Assembly (NCBI RefSeq): GCF_001904655.1
Contig: NZ_MRCC01000006.1
Location: forward strand, 186,001 to 250,000
Length of the DNA stretch: 64,000 bases
Direction: 5' to 3'
Source: Chroogloeocystis siderophila 5.2 s.c.1
GTDB taxonomy: Bacteria; Cyanobacteriota; Cyanobacteriia; Cyanobacteriales; Chroococcidiopsidaceae
The notes under the pieces are model-generated. The model had not been told where the DNA came from and did not search any database. It saw nothing but the letters and a program-made list of their open reading frames with translations. The position numbers and the translations under genes are program-made. Shown in pieces: positions 63,674 to 64,000 of the stretch. Within the stretch, counting starts at the first letter, position 1. Every line of letters begins with the position of its first letter.

Positions 63674-64000
63674 ATGAAATACGATCCTGAAAAACACCAT
63701 CGCCGATCGATTCGCCTCAAAGGATACGATTACTCTTCAGCAGGTGCCTATTTCATTACAATCTGTACACATCAACGAAGATGTTTGTTTGGAGTAATTA
63801 GAAACGGGGTCATGGAGTTAAATGCGTATGGACAAATTGTAGCAGAATGTTGGCAACAAATCCCGCAACATTTTCCCAGGGTTCAATTAGATGCATTTGT
63901 GGTAATGCCCAATCACGTTCATGGAATTTTGATGATAACCAATAACGGTAGGGACATGGCAATATCCGATGACGGTAGCATTGCCATGTCCCTACCAGGG
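63674..64000 (+). mobile_element. REP-associated tyrosine transposase (RAYT), partial; runs off window
   Basis: ATG at 63674. The N-terminal 109 residues include HHRRSIRLKGYDYSSAGAYFITICTHQRRCLFG and the HUH motif FVVMPNHVHGILMI, typical of RAYT (Y1/IS200-like) transposases. The reading continues NNGRDMAISDDGSIAMSLPG, encoded by an inverted repeat. The catalytic Tyr region would be beyond the window. A chromosomal domesticated transposase that mobilises REP hairpins is the usual role. Confidence 0.85.
63947..63996. repeat. REP-like hairpin with GTAG tetranucleotide inside RAYT coding sequence
   Basis: GGTAGGGACATGGCAAT (63947-63963) and ATTGCCATGTCCCTACC (63980-63996) are perfect inverted 17-bp arms separated by 16 bases. 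The left arm begins with GGTAG, containing the GTAG tetranucleotide recognised by RAYT enzymes next to REP hairpins. It lies in the middle of an open reading frame and adds about 17 codons in frame. Confidence 0.75.

Follow-up and report, generated by a model that had tools for sequence, protein, structure and literature searches.

The RAYT/TnpAREP gene at the edge of the analysed window (the whole 64-kb stretch of DNA, G000:C6:186001-250000, from a host genome of 5.0 Mb) most likely carries the relic of a REP element in a tolerated loop of a subclass-2.4-like transposase, whose reading frame would have been shifted recently by a repeat-associated deletion; we place the probability of this reading at roughly 0.85. 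Ancestrally, a double-foot GTAG palindrome together with a half-copy would have occupied the variable loop that separates the HUH motif from the WQ/Y motifs, and the REP DNA would have been translated in frame into a flexible loop, NNGRDMAITNDGRDMAMPCPYQ, without importance for catalysis, a state that appears to have been kept in another genome of the same genus (G002). The complete palindrome would then have lost 8 bp of its left arm, probably through slippage at the hairpin or direct repeat, which would have put translation out of frame and brought a stop codon into play 4 nt after the palindrome, leaving the only RAYT of the genome split into a HUH-bearing fragment and an out-of-frame Y-bearing fragment.

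The hairpin is a perfect inverted repeat with arms of 17 nt, just as the initial annotation had described it, and a spacing of 16 nt (Table 1). No other short-range inverted repeat of the window has arms as long, the runner-up reaching 11 bp. In simulated windows (first-order Markov, n = 15) the arm length never exceeded 11 bp, compared to the 17 bp observed, and folding of the hairpin as DNA gave z = -7.6, i.e. 7.6 standard deviations better than the shuffled sequences. A chance palindrome is ruled out by these simulations and the folding score, as well as by the codon-shuffled relatives described below. The structure is a composite, its left arm stemming from repeat unit 1 and its right arm from a damaged repeat unit 2. 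The latter derives from a 31-nt double-foot GTAG palindrome, the left arm of which is shorter by 8 bp, with the frame shifted as a result.

Table 1. Features of the RAYT gene and its in-gene repeats, in window coordinates
Feature	Position	Strand	Description
RAYT/TnpAREP 5' fragment	63674..64000	+	109 aa; TAA at 64001-64003, just beyond the window edge
HUH motif NHVH	63911..63922	+	From sequence; N80, H81 and H83 invariant in the alignment
Repeat unit 1	63947..63963	+	Half-REP GGTAGGGACATGGCAAT, the left hairpin arm; same half-repeat in the G002 orthologue
Repeat unit 2	63974..63996	+	23-nt remnant GGTAGC-ATTGCCATGTCCCTACC; from alignment with the syntenic intact orthologue
Right hairpin arm	63980..63996	+	Part of repeat unit 2; from inverted-repeat search and alignment

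The initial annotation had placed a GTAG-headed, REP-type palindrome in a RAYT gene, in the loop that follows the HUH motif, and this placement is borne out, since the hairpin lies directly after NHVH in the RAYT-like ORF. The accompanying claim of a frame kept open by the palindrome is incorrect: the ORF only seemed open because the window stops at base 64000; on the contig beyond the window the very next codon is TAA, which begins 4 nt past the end of the hairpin. The conserved remainder of the protein (GKFGKPIPGS...PVWQHNYYE...YIQMNP), including the WQ and tyrosine motifs, is encoded in a different frame, and the 5' and 3' RAYT ORFs overlap. The 109-aa product is devoid of the tyrosine motif, and because of this loss the window RAYT is very probably inactive. 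A search of the genome found no second RAYT.

The state before the break is best illustrated by G002, where a syntenic RAYT orthologue forms an uninterrupted single ORF of 189 aa and is flanked by the same two aminotransferase genes as the window copy. It contains the half-repeat, a spacer and the complete 31-nt palindrome GGTAGGGACATGGCAATGCCATGTCCCTACC, in this order and all in frame. When the two copies are aligned, the sole indel in the compared stretch is the 8 bp by which the left arm of the palindrome is shorter in the window copy; the lost bases abut the GTA(G) head, and point differences in the spacer and the palindrome centre adjoin the indel. We take the complete palindrome as the ancestral state because an identical 29-nt core is found as a repeat in other members of the order. 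In G010, a member of the same family, both flanks are present with no RAYT in between, and the other genome of the same genus (G001) has no RAYT and carries different DNA beside the same aminotransferase gene. A separate hairpin, TAGGGTAG...CTACCCTA, is found between the RAYT site and the LL-DAP-type aminotransferase gene at L002:5338-5366 (just past the window), L037:1466-1487 and L158 near 1430, and also in G010, where the site is without a RAYT; it is less likely to be a cognate REP than a terminator belonging to the neighbouring gene.

The two halves of the gene differ in their divergence. Between the window and G002, dN/dS is approximately 0.05 in the 5' (HUH) part and 0.30 in the 3' part (Fisher p ~0.04). 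The HUH half looks to be still under constraint and both catalytic motifs persist; this counts against the reading above, in that the decay must be recent or the missing 8 bp an assembly error. Relaxed selection on the 3' half was considered as proof of the age of the pseudogene and is not conclusive; the changes fall on both the window and the G002 lineage, and the divergence of the 3' half thus gives no date for the break.

Membership of the RAYT/TnpAREP family is indicated by the HUH and Y1 core and by the REP_Tyr_transpos profile (NCBIfam NF047646), albeit with profile scores below the curated cut-offs: 33 bits for the window fragment (E = 3.9e-8) and 63 bits for the G002 orthologue (E = 2.7e-17) against a cut-off of 80, and 21.7 bits against a cut-off of 23 for the Pfam Y1_Tnp match. 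The arrangement of a REP inside the gene is already known. TnpAREP subclass 2.4, defined by Quentin et al. 2018 and corresponding to RAYT group 4 of Bertels, is abundant in cyanobacteria and Bacteroidetes (PMC6006769); its tnpAREP genes hold REPs between HuH and Y with the frame undisturbed, and Quentin et al. suggest that the REP-encoded part is a peripheral loop of little effect (PMC6006769). Both the window copy and G002 likewise carry the REP between HuH and Y, and they match the motifs of the subclass (NH[IFV]H, WQ and YIxNNP) with NHVH and WQ, but have YIQMNP, which is one position off. The in-gene REP leaves the frame intact in G002 but not in the window copy, which we accordingly classify as a decayed relative; what is particular to it is only this broken frame, owing to the 8-bp deletion in the REP. 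A further difference from the subclass is that the window gene lacks flanking REPs of this type.

The E. coli TnpAREP (PDB 4ER8) has the HUH/Y1 fold in common with these proteins, as judged from the sequence profile and Foldseek matches, but it belongs to subclass 2.2, in which REPs inside the gene have not been reported, and the REPs associated with it form bulged hairpins (PMC6006769, PMC8266576). Other short palindromes tolerated within ORFs are intragenic REPs and the palindromic elements of Rickettsia, but these sit in unrelated genes and not in a cognate transposase (PMC3733652). A literature search on palindromes in cyanobacterial coding genes returned nothing relevant.

In-gene palindromes are common amongst the relatives of this RAYT. 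We surveyed 78 distinct relatives in which the stretch from HUH to WQ is uninterrupted and found a palindrome with arms of at least 9 bp within this stretch in 46, compared to 2.3 expected with shuffled codons, a percentage that pertains to a sample picked by similarity to cyanobacterial RAYTs and is not a family-wide rate. With arms of at least 12 bp the count was 30 of 78 versus 0 after codon shuffling. The same two cut-offs gave 21 and 3 in the 5' part of the gene and 1 and 0 in its 3' part. No HUH-to-WQ palindrome was present in the remaining 32, so that relatives with and without the insert, the comparison proposed at the outset, both exist. The in-loop palindromes are mostly of the form GTAG...CTAC, and in all in-loop cases GTAG falls in one of the two frames in which TAG is not read as a stop, as an open frame requires. 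The in-gene arm recurs in the 500-nt flanks of its own gene in 17 of the 46 relatives, versus 36 of 2070 for the flanks of other genes. In-frame GTAG loop palindromes were seen in L077, L081, L082, L084, L085, L087, L098, L103, L117, L141, L142, L151 and others, and the corresponding genomes are labelled Nitrospira, Chloroflexi, Desulfuromonas, Zixibacteria, Peribacteria, Atribacteria and Brocadia, amongst others. The sequence survey suggests that relatives with an in-gene REP are spread over many phyla; the published summary gives the distribution of subclass 2.4 as cyanobacteria, Bacteroidetes and 'various phyla' (PMC6006769).

That the insertion can be tolerated in a surface loop, as the initial annotation had envisaged, is consistent with the predicted structure of an intact relative and with the published description of subclass 2.4, but not with the window copy itself, in which the 8-bp deletion breaks the gene. 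The AlphaFold2 model of relative L077 has a mean pLDDT of 80.8, with residues 91-103 below 50; residues 90-99, which are encoded by the REP, coincide with this low-confidence stretch outside the confident core. The model matches TnpAREP 4ER8 (Foldseek, E = 2.2e-7) and also IS200-family transposases.

Copies of the palindrome are distributed unevenly. The window's genome contains zero copies of the complete palindrome and, when up to two mismatches are allowed, no further copies of the arm. A dispersed REP family was accordingly rejected for this genome, since matches with three mismatches are about as numerous as those of a reversed-sequence control, and the flanking or dispersed cognate REPs of a functional REPtron are lacking at up to two mismatches. 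G002 has one copy of the complete palindrome, within the RAYT, and no copy was found in the flanks. Two genomes from another family of the order, G029 and G096, contain 50 copies in one case and 55 in the other (up to two mismatches), and the reversed-sequence controls none. The absence of other copies, which the initial annotation would have held against its own proposal, thus applies to the window's genome at this threshold, yet other genera of the order have copies in abundance. G029 and G096 show weak, fragmentary RAYT matches only, despite their 50-55 palindrome copies; the mobilising enzyme may have been lost there or may come from another subclass.

The missing 8 bp could alternatively be an error of sequencing or assembly, introduced where a strong hairpin coincides with a direct repeat, in which case the strain would carry an intact in-frame RAYT like that of G002. 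The indel does fall exactly within the palindrome/direct-repeat region of a 43-contig draft assembly, and both RAYT halves otherwise keep their motifs, with a 5' dN/dS that is low. However, the genome is 99.8% complete and the point differences beside the indel point to genuine divergence, which makes an error unlikely. It is highly improbable that programmed +1 frameshifting joins the halves into an active enzyme with the hairpin as a stimulatory RNA structure. Such a mechanism would account for the overlap of the two ORFs and for a hairpin just upstream of the stop, but a stimulatory hairpin would be sought downstream, no recognised slippery site was apparent on reading the sequence, the G002 orthologue is one uninterrupted ORF, and an incidental, non-systematic view of the relatives noted no conserved two-frame architecture.

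A further explanation holds that the in-gene REP functions in cis as a target at which the enzyme cuts its own gene, either to limit itself or to seed REPs, and that the deletion is an enzymatic scar. That in-gene REPs turn up at one and the same site in different phyla, often matching the flanking REPs, would be in keeping with this, as would the position of the lost bases next to the GTA(G) head and, by analogy, the cleavage of single-stranded REP at GTAG by the E. coli RAYT (PMC3733652). Slippage accounts for the deletion equally well, though, 32 of the 78 relatives have no palindrome at that site, the REP has not spread in the window's genome or in G002, and no activity data were found for the subclass; we consider a scar of this kind distinctly unlikely. 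Self-targeting by the RAYT of its own gene is possible but unsupported. It is similarly doubtful that in-gene REPs are selected cis-elements, which would tie the enzyme to its cognate hairpin via horizontal transfer or enable self-limiting self-cutting; were this true, an event of this kind would have killed the window copy of the gene.

With the reading of a REP relic in a recently frameshifted RAYT, the locus illustrates two fates of an in-gene REP, which is tolerated in G002 and in the window destroys its host transposase by way of a small deletion. The locus itself is ordinary; in-gene REPs across many phyla would nevertheless make a test of self-targeting worthwhile.
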